DNA of 64,000 nt from Runella sp. MFBS21 (GTDB lineage: Bacteria; Bacteroidota; Bacteroidia; Cytophagales; Spirosomataceae), in the NCBI RefSeq assembly GCF_029433105.1, contig NZ_JARNTW010000007.1, forward strand, positions 186,001-250,000. Direction: 5' to 3'. Positions 43,523 through 50,030 of the stretch are shown here, piece by piece. The notes under the pieces were generated by a model. It worked only from the letters and a program-made list of their open reading frames with translations, was not told where the DNA came from and made no database searches. Made by a program: the position numbers and the translations under genes. Positions within the stretch are counted from its first letter, which is position 1. The number at the start of each line of letters is the position of its first letter.

Positions 43523-44797
43523 ATGACCTCGGAAAAACTTACGGCACTCCGCCAAGAAATTCAGACGTATCTTTCGGGTAGCTTACTTCCTTTTTGGATT
43601 CAACGTACCGTTGATAAGGAAAATGGCGGCTTCATTACTCATTTTGACCAATTTGGCAAGGATTCGGGCGAAGACGAAAAATCTTTGATTGCGCAATCTC
43701 GGTCAGTATTTACGTATTCGTCGGCGGTGCGAGCAGGCTATGATACCGACGGCACCCTCGCAGAGATGGCACGCCAAGGGGTAGATTATCTCATTGATAA
43801 AATGTGGGACAATGAATACGGCGGATTTTTTTGGATGACCAACCGCAAGGGAGAAGTTACGATTGACGAAAAAATCGTTTATGGGTTGAGTTTCTGTATT
43901 TATTCATTGAGCGAATACACCCTCGCCCTTGGCGACCCACGGGGCCAAGAATACGCCGAAAAATGCTTTGACCTATTACAAAAATACGCTGTAGATACCC
44001 ACTATGGAGGGTATTTTGAGATGTTTACTCGCGACTGGACCCTCAAAGGACCCGGCTCCGCTGGCGGCGACCGCAAAACCCTCGATGCGCATATGCACCT
44101 TATGGAGGCATTCACGACTTTGTATGAGTGTACGGGCAAAGAAATTCATCGCCGCAAGCTTCTCGAAATCATTGAGTTGCTGGTTTCGCGTATTATGCAT
44201 CCTGAGTATGGCACGGGTGTTCCGCAGTTTTGGGCCGATTGGCGCGTAGCTCCTCAGATTAAATTTGACATCGTATGGGGCTGGGATCGCTTCACCGAAG
44301 ATGGTCTAAAAGCCGCCGCTGAAGATAATACAAGCTATGGTCACAATGCCGAATTTGCGTGGTTGTTGATGCACGCTTTGGATATTCTAGGTCTTCCGTA
44401 TGATACTTATGGTGAGCAAATTACGAAATCATACAGTCATGCTTTAAAGTATGGTGTTGATTGGGAGTTTGGCGGCGTGTATGTAGAAGGTTCTCATGCG
44501 GGTGAGGTATATGACCGCGAAAAAGAGTTTTGGCAACAAGCCGAGATGCTCATCGGAATGCTCGATGCTTATCGCTTTTTGAAAGATGAAAAATACCTAG
44601 AAGCCTACGAAAACGTTCATCGTTTTGTATTTGACAAAATGATTAATCATGAGTTGGGGGAATGGTGGCCGCTTATGACCCGCGACGGCGTTCCTATTTG
44701 GAAGCACATGAGCCACTCTTGGAAAATCAATTATCATGATGTACGCTCGATGATTCAGTCGGCTATTCGCCTCGACAAAATCGTCAGAGGAGTCTAA
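43523..44797 (+). CDS. AGE-family sugar epimerase (cellobiose 2-epimerase-like)
   Basis: The 424-residue protein has the (alpha/alpha)6-barrel pattern of N-acylglucosamine/cellobiose 2-epimerases: ENGGFITHFDQFGK, LIAQSRSVFTYSSAVRAGYD, WDNEYGGFFWMTNRKG, DAHMHLMEAFTTLYE, TSYGHNAEFAWLLMHALDIL, KEFWQQAEMLIGMLDAYRF, and EWWPLMTRDG. The residues in SYGHNAEFAWLL and KEFWQQAEM are those that carry the catalytic His and Glu in cellobiose 2-epimerases. It probably converts glucose to mannose at the reducing end of disaccharides, which would suit the mannan-related GH92 gene elsewhere in the window. Confidence 0.87.
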   Translation: MTSEKLTALRQEIQTYLSGSLLPFWIQRTVDKENGGFITHFDQFGKDSGEDEKSLIAQSRSVFTYSSAVRAGYDTDGTLAEMARQGVDYLIDKMWDNEYGGFFWMTNRKGEVTIDEKIVYGLSFCIYSLSEYTLALGDPRGQEYAEKCFDLLQKYAVDTHYGGYFEMFTRDWTLKGPGSAGGDRKTLDAHMHLMEAFTTLYECTGKEIHRRKLLEIIELLVSRIMHPEYGTGVPQFWADWRVAPQIKFDIVWGWDRFTEDGLKAAAEDNTSYGHNAEFAWLLMHALDILGLPYDTYGEQITKSYSHALKYGVDWEFGGVYVEGSHAGEVYDREKEFWQQAEMLIGMLDAYRFLKDEKYLEAYENVHRFVFDKMINHELGEWWPLMTRDGVPIWKHMSHSWKINYHDVRSMIQSAIRLDKIVRGV

Positions 44798-45152
44798 ATC
44801 CTTAGCTATATGCTTTTTAAATGCTTAATGGTTTTGTGTGGGGAAGACCTAAAAAATGCCTAAAGCTTACAGCCTATTGCTACGTAGTTAGTGTTTTTAT
44901 ATTAGTTACGAATATTGCTCAAAACGGGGAGAAACTTCCCCGTTTTTGTTTTTTTTAATAACTTGCTTCGCAGATTAGAATAAAGTTTGCAAGCTGGGTA
45001 ATTGGTTCATTATCAGGGTTTTATTTTCAAATTTGCTTATTTTAAAATTTGCACATTTACTCAGTGGATTGTTTTTTTAAATGACATATTCTAAAACTGC
45101 AATATACCGAAGGCGTTCAATCAATATTCATCCTAAAATCACAACTGCTTAT
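44798..45152. other. 355-bp intergenic region with one terminator
   Basis: After the epimerase gene there is no supported coding frame up to the small-protein gene at 45153. The region holds a terminator at 44921-44950 (AAAACGGGGA, 6-nt loop, TCCCCGTTTT, T-run) for the epimerase operon and an AT-rich stretch that probably contains the promoter of the small gene. Confidence 0.7.
44921..44950 (+). terminator. Rho-independent terminator after the epimerase gene
   Basis: Arms AAAACGGGGA and TCCCCGTTTT with a 6-nt loop and a T-run about 125 bp after the stop codon. Confidence 0.85.
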
Positions 45153-45272
45153 ATGAACAATTTATTCAGAGGTCTACTAGCTGGCTATGGTGCCAAAAAA
45201 TTAGGAGGTGGATGCCTCAGTACTATCCTTATTTTTATTGTATTGTGGGTTATTTTGGGGCAGTGCCAATAA
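45153..45272 (+). CDS. 39-residue hydrophobic small protein
   Basis: From the ATG at 45153 the frame encodes MNNLFRGLLAGYGAKKLGGG followed by CLSTILIFIVLWVILGQCQ. It has a basic, glycine-rich N-terminal part (GAKKLGGG) and one membrane helix ending in Cys-Gln. I recall similar short proteins in Bacteroidota genomes but cannot give a name. A terminator follows closely, which supports an independent transcription unit. The longer frame from 45081 adds a non-hydrophobic, probably untranslated, stretch. Function unknown; possibly a membrane-embedded regulator. Confidence 0.6.
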   Translation: MNNLFRGLLAGYGAKKLGGGCLSTILIFIVLWVILGQCQ

Positions 45273-45326
45273 GGCTCCTACGCTAATCCTTGACAGCTAC
45301 TCATCAAAATCTTTCTGCTATTTCTG

Positions 45327-45360
45327 CAAAAGCTCCAAATACGCATTTGGGGCTTTTTTT
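45327..45360 (+). terminator. Terminator after the 39-residue gene
   Basis: AAAGCTCCAAAT pairs with ATTTGGGGCTTT (one T-G wobble) around a 4-nt loop and ends in a T-run. Confidence 0.82.
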
Positions 45361-45457
45361 GTGGGGTTACCTTTCAATACAAACTGACAAATATCTTATA
45401 CCTCATGGTGCAAAGGCCAACAAAAGCAATTTATTCAACAACATAAAGTTGATATTC

Positions 45458-45604
45458 TCTGCTCCGTGGTCTTTGGGACAAAGACCACGGAGCAGAATTT
45501 GTTTTCTTGATGTTCGTTTACCATGTTAATCATTCTTAAACTTATACTCCAAAACTTTTTTGGGTGGTATTTTTTAGGGCTGTGGAGACACAGACCACGG
45601 GGCA
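45458..45604. mobile_element. Non-autonomous RAYT/REP derivative 1 (~147 bp)
   Basis: A perfect 18-bp-arm hairpin (45458-45496, core GGTCTTTG GGA CAAAGACC) is joined to a copy of the first ~10 codons and the upstream region of the intact RAYT gene (TTTCTTGATGTTCGTTTACC near 45503), and ends in the right REP hairpin at 45578-45597. The rest of the transposase is missing. It is an internally deleted, MITE-like copy. Confidence 0.8.
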
Positions 45605-45613
45605 TAGAAAATT

Positions 45614-45808
45614 TTACTTATTTAATTGAAAAATTATGTTTGTTAAATTTTTACGAAAAACCCACCTTAAATTAAAGTTTTTATCCTCATTCAATTCATC
45701 AAGTACACCTTTTAATATTTCTTTTTCTTTACAAAAAGGTACTTCTTCTAGAAAACTTTCAATGTTTTTTTGTGAAGCAATAATTCCAATGATATTTTTT
45801 AAAAAATA
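45614..45808 (-). pseudogene. Orphan C-terminal gene fragment adjoining the RAYT element
   Basis: A minus-strand frame encodes about 64 charged, protein-like residues (FLKNIIGIIASQKNIESFLE ... RWVFRKNLTNIIFQLNK) and ends in a stop at 45614. Its upstream side runs straight into the left REP of the RAYT element, and no start codon belongs to it. It looks like the tail of a gene whose head was lost or displaced when the element arrived. No continuation is found on the other side of the element. Confidence 0.45.
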
Positions 45809-45809
45809 T

Positions 45810-46497
45810 CTGCTCCGTGGTCTGTGTCCCACAGACCTATTTGCAGTAGCTGATTTTAAAACCGATTCGCATAATGTGTCAAAAATCCAAATTCGTCTTT
45901 TTGGCTTTGATAAAATTTTGCTGATGACCATCTGTAATTTTCAGGACAATCTGCTAAACTCCATCGTTCATGTAGGGGATTTCGGTGAATATAGTCTATT
46001 TTCTGTTCTACCTTTTGCTTTGAGTCCATAAGTATTGCTAACGGATCTCGTTGCCAAATACGATATTCTCGTTCGGAGTCATCAACCTTAAAAAATGGTA
46101 ATACTGCAGCATGATGATGTTTTAAATCTTTTAAAATCATATGACTAGTGTATTTATTGAAACTTGCATGAGGCAATTCTTTACCATTGGGTTCTTTCAA
46201 TTCCCAAATCACGTGCAAGTGATTGGGCATAATCACGTATGCATACACTACAATTTGACCTCTGCCTACTAATTCTTTCCAAGAAGAAAGAATCAATTCT
46301 TTGTATTTGTCTTGTTTTAGCAAATGCTTCCAATCTTTAATGGTATCCGTCCAAAAATAAACTTCATCAAAGTTCATTCTTGAGTTTCGGAATTTGCTTT
46401 CTTGATGTTCGTTTACCATGTTAATAATTCTTAAACTTGTACTCCAAAACTTTTTTGAGTTGCATTTTTTAGGTCTGTGGAGACACAGACCACGGGG
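45810..46497. mobile_element. Intact RAYT element flanked by inverted REP hairpins
   Basis: The left REP is at 45810-45846 (CTGCTCCGTGG, then stem GGTCTGTG TCC CACAGACC). The transposase gene follows, read leftwards, and the right REP is at 46472-46497 (GGTCTGTG GAGA CACAGACC, CACGGGG). The two REPs are inverted with respect to each other. This is the arrangement expected for a REP-associated tyrosine transposase and its cognate repeats. Confidence 0.85.
45856..46419 (-). CDS. REP-associated tyrosine transposase (Y1 HUH family)
   Basis: The protein is 187 residues, full length for the class. It contains the HUH metal motif in AYVIMPNHLHVIW (His67, His69) and the nucleophile Tyr143 in EQKIDYIHRNPLHERW, followed by NYRWSSAKFY. 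RAYTs cut and rejoin single-stranded DNA at REP hairpins and are related to IS200/IS605 transposases. REP hairpins lie on both sides, and partial copies of this gene's two ends occur within 2.2 kb. The reading frame is uninterrupted, so the enzyme may be active. Confidence 0.9.
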   Translation of the reverse strand: MVNEHQESKFRNSRMNFDEVYFWTDTIKDWKHLLKQDKYKELILSSWKELVGRGQIVVYAYVIMPNHLHVIWELKEPNGKELPHASFNKYTSHMILKDLKHHHAAVLPFFKVDDSEREYRIWQRDPLAILMDSKQKVEQKIDYIHRNPLHERWSLADCPENYRWSSAKFYQSQKDEFGFLTHYANRF

Positions 46498-46560
46498 TGG
46501 GGGGTGGGGTGTTCAAAAGTGTATCAGTTGCAATAATTCAACTATTATTCTTCATCTGAG

Positions 46561-46998
46561 TCAAAATACAGAGTCAAAATCTTTTCTTAAATATAAATAA
46601 ATAAATCCTATGATATTAGTAGAAAAAAACCAACTAATTTTTATATTATTTTCATAAATAATTATTTCATAAAAAGATTTTGAATTCTTTAATTCGATGT
46701 ATTGATTAAAAAAAAGATAAAAAAACAAAAAATTAATTGAAAATAAATGAATTATAACTAAGAATACTCTTTTTTTTATTATATTATTAAATATAAACAG
46801 AAAAAATAATAAACAAATGGAATAAGATATTATAGCATATAATGGAAAGAAATAAGCAGAAATCTGATTATATATACTAATGTTTTCATTTATATTTAGA
46901 AGGAAATGTATTAGCTGCCACAATAACCACACCGCGAATAATACAGGAATAAAAATAATCGCCAGTTCATTACCCATTTTTTTCATATTTATTGCCAT
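46561..46998 (-). CDS. Hypothetical membrane protein, very AT-rich gene
   Basis: The 145-residue protein has four predicted membrane helices (LAIIFIPVLFAVWLLWQLIHFLL, FFPLYAIISYSICLLFFLFIF, VFLVIIHLFSINFLFFYLFF, ISWFFSTNIIGFIYLYL). The family is not recognised. The gene is much richer in A and T than the housekeeping genes around, which suggests transfer from elsewhere. It lies between the RAYT element and truncated element copies. It could be an orphan immunity or accessory membrane protein; that is a guess from context. Confidence 0.55.
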   Translation of the reverse strand: MAINMKKMGNELAIIFIPVLFAVWLLWQLIHFLLNINENISIYNQISAYFFPLYAIISYSICLLFFLFIFNNIIKKRVFLVIIHLFSINFLFFYLFFNQYIELKNSKSFYEIIIYENNIKISWFFSTNIIGFIYLYLRKDFDSVF

Positions 46999-47050
46999 TT
47001 AAAAGTTGCTTCGTACTTGATTTTAATGAATTCTGCTGGTTTATCATCAC

Positions 47051-47264
47051 CATGGTCTGTGTCCCACAGACCTATTTGCAGTAGCTGATTTTAAAACGGA
47101 TTCTGCTCTGCTCCTGCTCCCTGCTCTGCTCTGCTCCTGCTCTCCTGCTCCGTGGTCTGTGTCCCACAGACCTATTTACAGTAGCTGATTTTAAAACCGA
47201 TTTGCATCATGTGTCAAAAATCTAAATTCGTCTTTTTTACTTTGATAAAGTTTTGCGGATGACC
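47051..47264. mobile_element. Two truncated RAYT left ends in tandem
   Basis: A first left REP (47051-47080, GGTCTGTG TCC CACAGACC) keeps about 25 bp of the transposase 3' region. After a CTGCTC-rich stretch, a second left REP (47150-47177) is followed by about 85 bp that match the 3' end of the intact RAYT gene with scattered changes up to GATGACC at 47264. Both lack the rest of the element and cannot encode a transposase. Confidence 0.8.
47103..47151. repeat. CTGCTC-rich microsatellite
   Basis: Irregular repeats of CTGCTC and TCCTGCTC fill about 49 bp just before a left REP. The REP's own flank is CTGCTCCGTGG, so the tract looks like an expansion of that flank by slippage. Confidence 0.75.
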
Positions 47265-47275
47265 AAGGTGTAGGG

Positions 47276-47968
47276 CTAAAACTCAATTTTCTCAATAGGT
47301 ACTTTGGCTTTATGCAAGTATTTAAGAATATGCTTTAAGGCAGACATCCCTGCATAGCCTGTATCTACATGAATTTCACAACGGTTAGCGTCTAGTTTTT
47401 CGGCAGTGCCAACATAATGAATTGGGTGGCGTTTTTTACCTTTTTCAAAAAGGTCGTTCCAGCCAACAAAAGCATCATCAATTATTTGTATTATTTGATT
47501 AAAATACTCCTCAGGGGTTGTGATTTCAAACATGGCATCTACGCCATCCCATTTCCACATTTCTACCCTAAACGAATAACCTTCTATCAGTGTAGGTTTT
47601 GGCTTTGACTTGAATCGTTCTCGAATTCGCTCTACAAATTCATCCAGTATTTCAATCCAAAATTGAATATCTTTCTCCTCTACTTCCTCATGGGGATAAA
47701 GCGGTAATTCACCATTTTTGTATTTCCAATAAAAGGTAACGGGTATATAAACGCTGTGAAAATTACCTGCCAAACCAACTCTTTCAATCCACATAATCAC
47801 TTGGCCTTTATCTATTTTAATTTTAACTTCGGAACAAGTTACCATATTTATGGTAACATATTCAATGAAAGGGTTTATCTGCACTAACTTTTGGGCAAGA
47901 AAAGCACTACTGAGTTTCTCAAAACTTTTTGATATTTCAAATTTACTTGTTAGAGTTCTTGTTTTCAT
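47276..47968 (-). CDS. Hypothetical protein, unknown family
   Basis: The 230-residue soluble protein has no signal peptide or membrane helix. Visible parts are a beta-rich N-half (INPFIEYVTINMVTCSEVKIKIDKGQVIMWIERVG), a charged helix (EEKDIQFWIEILDEFVERIRERFKSKPKP) and a C-half with FEITTPEEYFNQIIQIIDDAFVGWNDLFEKGKKRHPIHYVG. I do not recognise the family. It lies between truncated RAYT copies and a candidate immunity gene, so it may be a second orphan immunity protein of a decayed toxin locus; there is no direct proof. Confidence 0.6.
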   Translation of the reverse strand: MKTRTLTSKFEISKSFEKLSSAFLAQKLVQINPFIEYVTINMVTCSEVKIKIDKGQVIMWIERVGLAGNFHSVYIPVTFYWKYKNGELPLYPHEEVEEKDIQFWIEILDEFVERIRERFKSKPKPTLIEGYSFRVEMWKWDGVDAMFEITTPEEYFNQIIQIIDDAFVGWNDLFEKGKKRHPIHYVGTAEKLDANRCEIHVDTGYAGMSALKHILKYLHKAKVPIEKIEF

Positions 47969-48011
47969 CTAATTATAGTAGTTATCGTTGCTCTTTATTT
48001 GATAATTGTAC

Positions 48012-48156
48012 GCCGTGGTCTGTGTCCCAAAGACCTATTTGCAGAATTTGCTTTCTTGATGTTCGTTTACCATGTTAATAATTCTTAAACATTAAACTTG
48101 TACTCCAAAACTTTTTTGGGTTGTATTTTTTAGGGCTGTGGAGACACAGCCCATGG
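48012..48156. mobile_element. Non-autonomous RAYT/REP derivative 2 (~145 bp)
   Basis: It has the same structure as derivative 1: a left REP (GGTCTGTG TCC CAAAGACC, one mismatch), then TATTTGCAGAATTTGCTTTC, i.e. the first codons of the RAYT gene and its upstream region, then the right REP at 48133-48152 (GGGCTGTG GAGA CACAGCCC, perfectly paired). It carries an extra 7-bp duplication (ATTAAAC) relative to derivative 1. Confidence 0.8.
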
Positions 48157-48183: not shown

Positions 48184-48912
48184 TTATTGATTTAAAAATG
48201 TAATGGTACGCGGGCTAATGTCTTCAAACTTCCAACCCTCGGTAAGCCCTGCCGCCTCCAACGCTTCTTTGAGCGGCTCGCTCACTACTTTGAATAATTC
48301 GTCACAAATGAAATAATCGTGGTATTTATCCAAAACAAAATCGTGAATATCTAATACAGAACCCTTATCAAAAAATTTTATCCTTGTCTTTAAGTAATCA
48401 TCTTCATTATGAATGCCAAGTTCGGTGGCTGATTGTATAATACCACTTTTCCTATCAGCATAAGTACATTTTTCAAAAGTTATTTTGGTTTCTTCGCCTA
48501 ACTGAAAAACATAGTAATCTAATTTTTCGCCTTTATACATCAGTTTAGCAGGGTAAAACTTATGCCGAGGGAGATTGAAAGCAGCGATAGTTTCTTTGAA
48601 CTGTTCTGATACTAAAAAGCAAGAACTTGTTGTGTAATGATTGACAACAAACTTATAAATATGGAGTTTTATCCAATCGAATTTCTTTTTTCGACTGCCA
48701 TACAGTTCCTTCAACACAAAATAATCAAAAACAGGTACATCGTCAATAAGAGATCTATTATTGATGGATTTTTCGAGGGGCTGCTTAAAAAAATTCTTCG
48801 TATCACCGCCATCAGGGATGAACTCAGCCCCTTGCATTTCGGGGGATAAATAGGCAGAAGGATAAATTTTTTGCCCAGGTCTTATTTCAATTTCTAATTG
48901 ATAAAATTTCAT
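48184..48912 (-). CDS. Candidate immunity protein (Imm11/Imm43-like)
   Basis: The 242-residue soluble protein ends with DYFICDELFKVVSEPLKEALEAAGLTEGWKFEDISPRTITFLN, which resembles the C-terminal signature of the Imm11 (DUF1629) and Imm43 immunity families of polymorphic toxin systems (a 'lexSEpLKeALEaAGLtG'-type stretch). The ATG at 48912 overlaps the TGA stop of the upstream toxin-like remnant (ATGA), the coupled arrangement expected for toxin and immunity genes. The TTG two codons before is less likely. If the toxin is indeed broken, this would be an orphan immunity gene. The family call is from memory of the motif. Confidence 0.55.
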   Translation of the reverse strand: MKFYQLEIEIRPGQKIYPSAYLSPEMQGAEFIPDGGDTKNFFKQPLEKSINNRSLIDDVPVFDYFVLKELYGSRKKKFDWIKLHIYKFVVNHYTTSSCFLVSEQFKETIAAFNLPRHKFYPAKLMYKGEKLDYYVFQLGEETKITFEKCTYADRKSGIIQSATELGIHNEDDYLKTRIKFFDKGSVLDIHDFVLDKYHDYFICDELFKVVSEPLKEALEAAGLTEGWKFEDISPRTITFLNQ

Positions 48913-49079
48913 TTGCAATTGATAGTTAATGAATTGAGAGGATTACCATTTACGCCAGTGGCAGGTGTACCTGTTGCACAAACGCCTTCTACCTGTTTTT
49001 TAAGGCAACTAATATACTTCTTTATGCTTTTGATAGCGTCAATTTTATCTTGCGGACTCGATAAAGGCGAACCTAATAC
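48909..49079 (-). pseudogene. Beheaded C-terminal reading frame, possible toxin remnant
   Basis: A minus-strand frame of 56 residues (VLGSPLSSPQDKIDAIKSIK ... NGNPLNSLTINCK) ends in a TGA that overlaps the ATG of the candidate immunity gene. It contains helix-forming and Cys-containing segments and no start codon. Upstream the frame runs into a perfect palindrome at 49081-49109 and soon meets a stop. It looks like the last piece of a larger protein, plausibly a polymorphic toxin, truncated by the repeat. Confidence 0.5.
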
Positions 49080-49109: not shown

Positions 49110-49388
49110 TGGAGATAAAAAAGTAAGACACTTCGGAGAAGTCAGCTATCAGCCTCATCTATTTGTTGAAGACTAGTCTTTAGATTAAGATTAGCTCTTC
49201 TGTTTTGCGTCGGCAATGCAGTCGCTGCATTTTTAGTAAGGTTCATCGTAGCATCAAAGGTCTAGTGAACAAAACTCATTATTGGTAAATTAGTCGGTTT
49301 TACAAACCTTTTTCCTGTACAGTTCGTTGTGAATAGAGATAACAAACAACCACCACCACCCGTTGTAACTATCTCTAAAAAGACAATC
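49110..49388. other. Intergenic region before the TetR-like gene
   Basis: No supported gene. A short hairpin with a T-run (AATGCAG TCG CTGCATT, 49215-49231) could terminate plus-strand transcription, but no plus-strand gene precedes it. The rest should include the promoter of the TetR/ABC1 operon. Confidence 0.5.
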
Positions 49389-50030
49389 ATGGACATGGAA
49401 AAAGTCGAAAAAATTCGCAAAACATACGTTGAGTACGTACTCGAACAGGGGCAAGCTCCCGCTTCTTTTTATGCTTTCGCCAAAAAATTAAAAATGGCGG
49501 AAGCCGATTTATACGAATTTTATACTTCTTTTGAAGCCATAGAAATGGATTTGTGGGCTTCGTTTTTTACTCAATCCCGCACTACCGCCGAAAACGACCC
49601 TGTCTACCAAACCTATTCGGTGCGTGAAAAACTACTTGCGTTTTACTACACTTGGGTAGAAGTGCTTAAATCAAATCGGAGTTTTGTAGTGTATAGCTAC
49701 CGCAAATTGCCTCAGCCTGTTGCTCCCAAAAACCCCCAACAGCTCCGTCCGTTCAAAGATGCTTTCCTGAACTACGCCCACGATTTGATGTACGAAGGCC
49801 GCGAAAGTCAAGAGATTGTGGCTCGCCCTTATATTTCTAATCGCTATCCAGAAGCGGTGTGGCTCAATACGCTCTATATTTTGGATTTTTGGGTAAAAGA
49901 TACAAGTCGCAATTTTGAACTAACGGATACTGCTATCGAAAAAACCGTCAACACAGGCTTCGACTTGATGGGCCGTTCGATTGTGGATACGGTGGTTGAT
50001 TTGGCAAAATTTGTATACCAAAATCGATAA
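49389..50030 (+). CDS. TetR-like regulator
   Basis: The 213-residue protein has an N-terminal helix-turn-helix-like part (EKIRKTYVEYVLEQGQAPASFYAFAKKLKMAEADLYEFYTSFEAIEMDLW) and an all-helical C-terminal domain (LLAFYYTWVEVLKSNRSFVVYSYR...). The layout fits TetR/AcrR regulators, though the recognition helix is less canonical than usual. It ends two bases before the ABC1 kinase gene, so they are co-transcribed and co-regulated. I start at ATG 49389; the GTG at 49329 would add a Pro-rich stretch. Confidence 0.75.
   Translation: MDMEKVEKIRKTYVEYVLEQGQAPASFYAFAKKLKMAEADLYEFYTSFEAIEMDLWASFFTQSRTTAENDPVYQTYSVREKLLAFYYTWVEVLKSNRSFVVYSYRKLPQPVAPKNPQQLRPFKDAFLNYAHDLMYEGRESQEIVARPYISNRYPEAVWLNTLYILDFWVKDTSRNFELTDTAIEKTVNTGFDLMGRSIVDTVVDLAKFVYQNR

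Follow-up and report, generated by a model that had tools for sequence, protein, structure and literature searches.

A small gene tightly conserved in scattered Bacteroidota adjoins stress-protection genes in some lineages

In the yciGFE-katN stress locus of Salmonella and E. coli, a DUF892 gene and a Mn-catalase gene lie side by side; we take DUF892 to be the YciE/YciF-type family. The locus is named in the reference list of a paper on sigma-S dependent small proteins of Salmonella, in which such proteins are proposed to modify larger proteins or complexes (PMC5437024). On a broader scale, sORFdb is reported to comprise 8,884 families of proteins of 50 aa or fewer (PMC11796252).

Here we analyze a small gene in the window, by which we mean the whole 64,000-nt stretch of Runella DNA under study. 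The gene is tightly conserved in scattered Bacteroidota and, in some lineages, adjoins stress-protection genes. On the strength of these two features, its product is a candidate for a missed membrane microprotein of the stress response.

Reading frame, transcription unit and selection on the protein

The gene is an ORF of 39 codons on the + strand, with an ATG at 45153 and a TAA at 45270-45272. Its product, MNNLFRGLLAGYGAKKLGGGCLSTILIFIVLWVILGQCQ (39 aa), is the 39-residue hydrophobic protein that a preliminary description had placed there. The following features define its surroundings.

44921-44956 (+): terminator closing the upstream epimerase gene, -15.4 kcal/mol, also found in a consensus terminator scan
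44957-45152 (+): expected promoter region, with a weak candidate, ATTG-N20-TAAAACTG, picked out by eye
45153-45272 (+): gene for a 39-aa single-pass membrane protein, stop codon included (ORF, conservation, purifying selection)
45328-45357 (+): intrinsic terminator hairpin of the small gene, -14.9 kcal/mol, with a T run to 45360

The same frame is open in the 5' direction as far as an ATG at 45081, which would give 63 aa. Among 28 loci, the 24 codons 5' of Met 45153 are common only to the near-identical L001. The conserved block begins at this Met: N2 is present in 84 of 88 distinct sequences, M1 being fixed by construction because a script placed each start at the nearest Met. The set of 88 includes the window sequence and leaves out L021, L048 and L100 (one-residue mis-parse).

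Upstream, an N-acylglucosamine 2-epimerase-type gene (43523-44797, PF07221) is separated from the small gene by a gap of 355 nt. The preliminary description credited the small gene with a terminator of its own, in agreement with the hairpin at 45328-45357, which is absent from the list of the consensus scan and came from a separate analysis of hairpins followed by T runs. Such a hairpin and T run lie within 130 nt 3' of the gene at 13 of 28 loci, the window locus among them. Given the terminator of the epimerase gene on one side and its own on the other, the small gene in the window looks like a monocistronic unit. Neither a sigma-70 scan nor a scan for Bacteroidota -33/-7 elements returned a promoter 5' of the gene in the window. 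The pattern ATTG-N20-TAT[AC]TTTC precedes the gene at 4 of 10 Runella loci (L003 and L005-L007), a promoter candidate too weak to claim.

A palindromic repeat, CCGTGGTCTGTGTCCCACAGACC, is present in five near-identical copies (at most 2 mismatches) over 45468-48035, around a REP-associated tyrosine transposase-like gene (45856-46419, -; NF047646, 70.6 bits versus a cut-off of 80). Genome-wide, exact matches to the core palindrome pattern number 7; they form two clusters, both on the contig that holds the window. The window also holds a sub-threshold match to the Imm11 immunity family (48184-48918, -; 20.6 bits versus a cut-off of 22.1) and a gene for a TetR-type regulator (49329-50030, +; PF17931). 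At Runella loci L003, L088 and L089, what appears by eye to be a relative of this regulator gene is located 0.2-0.4 kb 3' of the small gene.

In a comparison of the window gene against 26 relatives, we put aside the near-identical L001, leaving 25. The pN/pS ratio was 0.08-0.27 for 23 of these; L027 and L028, which are the most distant, gave 0.39 and 0.52. The ratios are uncorrected and silent sites approach saturation; nor are the rows independent, as close kin are numerous among the relatives. In the same relatives (L001 aside), only 22-38% of the 60 nt 5' of the start codon are identical. Low pN/pS next to so divergent an upstream region indicates that strong selection acts at the level of the protein, and the ORF is a real protein-coding gene. 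A chance ORF or a non-coding RNA would agree with the shortness of the frame and with the lack of an apparent Shine-Dalgarno site. This explanation is refuted by the substitution pattern, as well as by residues fixed over a phylum, and its probability is negligible; across 44700-45900, Rfam gave 8 matches, none of which reached the gathering score.

Distribution and predicted membrane anatomy

When 200 genomes of the same family were searched, 28 had a clear relative (E 5.3e-9 or better); these 28 include 10 of 13 genomes of the window's own genus (its own genome counted). Clear relatives were also detected in the order, where 16 of 291 genomes were positive at E 7e-17 or better, and in the phylum, where 47 of 395 were positive at E 6e-6 or better. 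A wider profile recovered the same 47 phylum genomes at E 3e-8 or better. Matches set aside as chance amounted to 22 of 50 matching genomes in the family search (E 0.05-1 only), 2 of 18 in the order, 1 of 48 in the phylum and 3 of 50 in the phylum with the wider profile. A scan of a genome collection confirmed 387 places. The best 80 of these 387 include Runella, Pontibacter, Chryseolinea, Flavobacterium, Segetibacter, Emticicia, Cesiribacter, a Rhodothermaceae MAG and others; among them, the nearest named genome is Runella zeae, whose protein is identical. Conservation of this extent is far beyond chance. The preliminary description had suggested a conserved membrane regulator or component of Bacteroidota: judged by sequence, the component stands, with relatives in family, order and phylum, and nothing here shows a regulator.

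Presence is patchy, even inside one genus. In g145, taken as Flavobacterium (as g1 is taken as Runella) because loci and positions on contigs agree, 71 of 150 genomes were positive at E 0.001, 7 of them with matches weaker than E 1e-7. Such patchiness within a genus suggests that the gene is useful rather than essential. All 71 positive genomes have a single match each, and G372 has two intact copies. The preliminary description held that a lack of conservation, or stop codons in the same frame, would speak against the gene. Neither applies, apart from two broken copies: L021 has a TAA at codon 8, and L048 is a decayed second copy in which core residues differ and a TAG interrupts the frame.

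These copy numbers bear on the possibility of a type I toxin or a similar membrane-permeabilising peptide. Length, hydrophobicity and a positive N-terminus are all compatible with a toxin, as are the decayed copy L048 and the paired copies of G372. The single match in every positive g145 genome and the residues fixed across the phylum point the other way, and no relative was found in viral contigs, plasmids or phages. We regard a toxin as improbable.

At E 10, the window protein matched 0 families in Pfam, NCBIfam and PHROGs. The 88 members, which were searched against Pfam and NCBIfam (PHROGs received the window protein only), reached no cut-off, with best E values of 0.0021 and 0.039, respectively. 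Weak matches of some members to DUF3309 (PF11752; 7 of 88, best E 0.0021) and ERGIC_N (PF13850; 11 of 88, best E 0.0094) are hydrophobic similarities of low significance, and the window protein itself matches neither. The peptide GYGAKKLGGG was not found in the papers searched, and the matches listed (titles and abstract starts) included no paper on the family. The family thus has no curated model in the libraries searched, yet it is of a known kind, the small single-pass membrane proteins. It may be among the families of sORFdb.

The protein divides into three parts.

45159-45203 (+): helix 1, residues 3-17 (AlphaFold2 model, column statistics)
45204-45215 (+): GGG hinge and invariant Cys21, residues 18-21 (alignment, AlphaFold2 model)
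45213-45263 (+): transmembrane helix, residues 21-37 (AlphaFold2 model, hydropathy)

Residues A10, A14, K16, G18, G20, C21, F28 and L35 are invariant in the 88 distinct sequences. C38 is present in only 80 of 88, indicating that the universal Cys is Cys21 and not the near-terminal Cys38. The glycine- and lysine-rich GAKKLGGG pointed out in the preliminary description corresponds to residues 13-20. The 19-residue Kyte-Doolittle maximum, 2.48, starts at residue 17 and predicts one membrane helix, as had been proposed; the accompanying statement that the helix ends in Cys has to be corrected, because Cys38 is penultimate and the last residue is Gln. At less than 50 aa and with one membrane helix, the product has the size and topology of a single-pass microprotein. 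AlphaFold2, run with the 88-row alignment, likewise modeled a helix at residues 3-17, a break at GGG and a second helix at 21-37 (mean pLDDT 87, pTM 0.55). No PDB entry matched by sequence. Foldseek gave 11 matches in the PDB, none at E 0.001, and we took these as chance helix pairs (best E 1.9).

In helix 1, residues 7, 10, 11, 14 and 18 are small in 93-100% of sequences and fall within 100 degrees of one another on a helical wheel, opposite L8, Y12, F5, K16 and L9. G13 is always small too, but lies off this face. We read the stripe of small residues as a candidate helix-packing face. An amphipathic surface helix is not supported for helix 1, whose hydrophobic moment is 0.13-0.17, a value that 73-84% of shuffles equal or exceed.

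Acidic residues occur within residues 1-20 in only 1 of 88 sequences, and positive charges precede the membrane helix, from which the N-terminus is predicted to be inside; Cys21 would then be located at the cytosolic border of the membrane. In several lineages, a variable tail of 18-47 residues extends past the helix (up to 86 aa in total), as expected of a free end outside the membrane. In six genomes of the flavobacterial family f26 (L179-L184), extra residues produce GGG[KR]CGC ahead of the helix.

Two other readings of the Cys21 region were considered. The first, a bacterial lipoprotein, was rejected: a lipobox needs a hydrophobic stretch before the Cys, whereas here LGGG precedes Cys21 and the hydrophobic stretch follows it. 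The second, a secreted, bacteriocin- or signal-like double-glycine peptide cleaved past GGG, is suggested by the Gly-Gly pair ahead of Cys21. Such cleavage would leave nothing but a bare membrane helix, and by eye no peptidase-exporter appeared among the printed neighbours or the 25 of 138 neighbour families listed, within which MacB/FtsX permeases account for 3 of 123 near neighbours. We consider such a peptide highly improbable.

Gene neighbourhood and stress genes

The only functional lead is a neighbourhood of stress genes in other genomes, not in the window. No stress gene was seen near the small gene in the window, and none was seen by eye at the Runella, Emticicia and Pontibacter loci (one locus each probed). 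In genera g59, g120, g181, g196 and g226 and in two MAGs, a DUF892 gene lies directly 5' on the same strand, with a gap of 11-25 nt. These cases span five GTDB-type families (f22, f19, f26, f41 and f43), and this adjacency is the part of the stress-neighbour evidence that we trust. DUF892 is rare: G252, G372, G381, G609 and G799 were each found to have one such gene, and in each it is the neighbour of the small gene. Of 16 genomes that carry the small gene, 10 have no intact DUF892 gene next to it. The window's genome has a single DUF892 gene, on another contig; G608 has four, all elsewhere; G477, G646, G733 and G768 also have theirs elsewhere, G768 with an additional fragment near the small gene; and G022, G093, G401 and G700 have none. 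Overall, DUF892 makes up 7 of 123 near neighbours versus at most 1 of 87 far ones.

Around several loci we also found genes for Mn-catalase, DUF2383, DUF4142, YtxH, DUF5670/lmo0937, an AI-2E transporter, BON and ferritin/Dps, as well as a YflT-like gene (E 1.3e-4, below the curated cut-off). Dense groups of stress-type genes, with DUF892, Mn-catalase, YflT-like, DUF2383, YtxH, lmo0937-type and AI-2E genes in varying sets, are present at L156, L157, L158, L161, L166 and L185.

We then probed for 13 families that we take to be stress-related. Of 52 case loci, 20 had at least one of them within 6.5 kb and 13 had at least two, compared with none of 39 control windows in either case (Fisher p 3e-6 and 4e-4, respectively); these p-values flatter the association, because the families were picked after the neighbours had been viewed and six case loci were chosen partly for theirs. 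Three of the 20 positive loci rest on ClpB or DUF808 alone, so that 17 of 52 remain without these two families. When the six picked loci were removed as well, 5 of 26 other whole-genome loci were positive versus 0 of 39 controls (p 0.008). The 52 loci represent 45 genus-level groups, 16 of which are positive without ClpB and DUF808. Eight case loci missed by the motif pattern were centred on the middle of their stretch. Controls came only from the genomes of whole-genome cases, some with 2-3 windows each, and a 2-kb control (L189) was dropped. L031-L033 were removed as duplicates; in addition, several pairs of the remaining loci (e.g. L036/L108) come from a single genome that has two ids.

In Flavobacterium, the order clpB-small gene-DUF808 is common, with clpB upstream at 37 of 148 loci and DUF808 beside the small gene at 49 of 148. 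A clpB operon was rejected, as all 5 loci examined have a terminator in the gap between clpB and the small gene. In two g23 genomes (L010 and L014), the microprotein gene is followed after 19 nt by a gene (1640-2029 in L010) for a 130-aa protein, whose resemblance to pelota is faint (E 4e-4, well short of the cut-off).

Gene context in several families, though not in the window, thus supports the stress link. The product might instead be a small subunit of a membrane complex without a role in stress, its stress neighbours being incidental or lineage-specific. This would suit the 32 of 52 loci with no stress-type gene nearby, the terminator close behind the gene at 13 of 28 loci and the strong conservation. 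Patchy presence disfavours a housekeeping subunit, however, and the DUF892 genes placed immediately 5' in five families are difficult to dismiss as incidental. On balance, a subunit unrelated to stress seems somewhat unlikely.

Proposed role and comparison with known systems

The explanation we favor, with a probability of roughly 0.45, is that the gene encodes an unnamed, usually single-copy inner-membrane microprotein that is part of the general stress equipment in some Bacteroidota. The microprotein would be made together with this equipment. Helix 1 would lie at the cytoplasmic face, with its stripe of small residues packing on another helix, a mechanism that we infer from the alignment and the model, and Cys21 would sit at the membrane border. 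When stress genes are expressed, the microprotein would most likely serve a larger membrane protein as a small subunit or modulator, or else work as a homo-oligomer. A more specific role for Cys21 is suggested by its invariance and by the doubled Cys of GGG[KR]CGC in one subfamily: it might sense oxidants or bind metal, making the microprotein a thiol-based membrane partner of the DUF892/Mn-catalase module that holds stress proteins of the ferritin-like kind, or else a membrane enzyme, at the inner membrane. We consider this role unlikely.

The gene belongs to a protein family at the level of the phylum, whose members are of a size frequently missed in annotation. Through the DUF892 operons, the general stress response of Bacteroidota, which has received little study, becomes accessible to tests; the invariant Cys and the small-residue stripe can be probed residue by residue.

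Among described proteins, lmo0937 (NF033488/DUF5670; about 50 aa) is likewise hydrophobic and occurs in some of the same neighbourhoods, its gene type being detected by phmmer at 5 of 52 case loci (one verified). Its sequence is different, however: none of the 88 members matches NF033488 or PF18919, whereas a true lmo0937/DUF5670 member in the neighbourhood does match its model. With yciGFE-katN, the Bacteroidota loci L108, L156 and L158 share the side-by-side arrangement of DUF892 and Mn-catalase genes; unlike it, the Bacteroidota loci add the microprotein gene. To our knowledge, sigma-S is absent from Bacteroidota. The sigma-S dependent small proteins of Salmonella belong to another phylum and are likened here by description. 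As portrayed in PMC5437024, they are also tiny, stress-linked and mostly uncharacterised, and the general mode proposed for them resembles the one that we propose for the microprotein.
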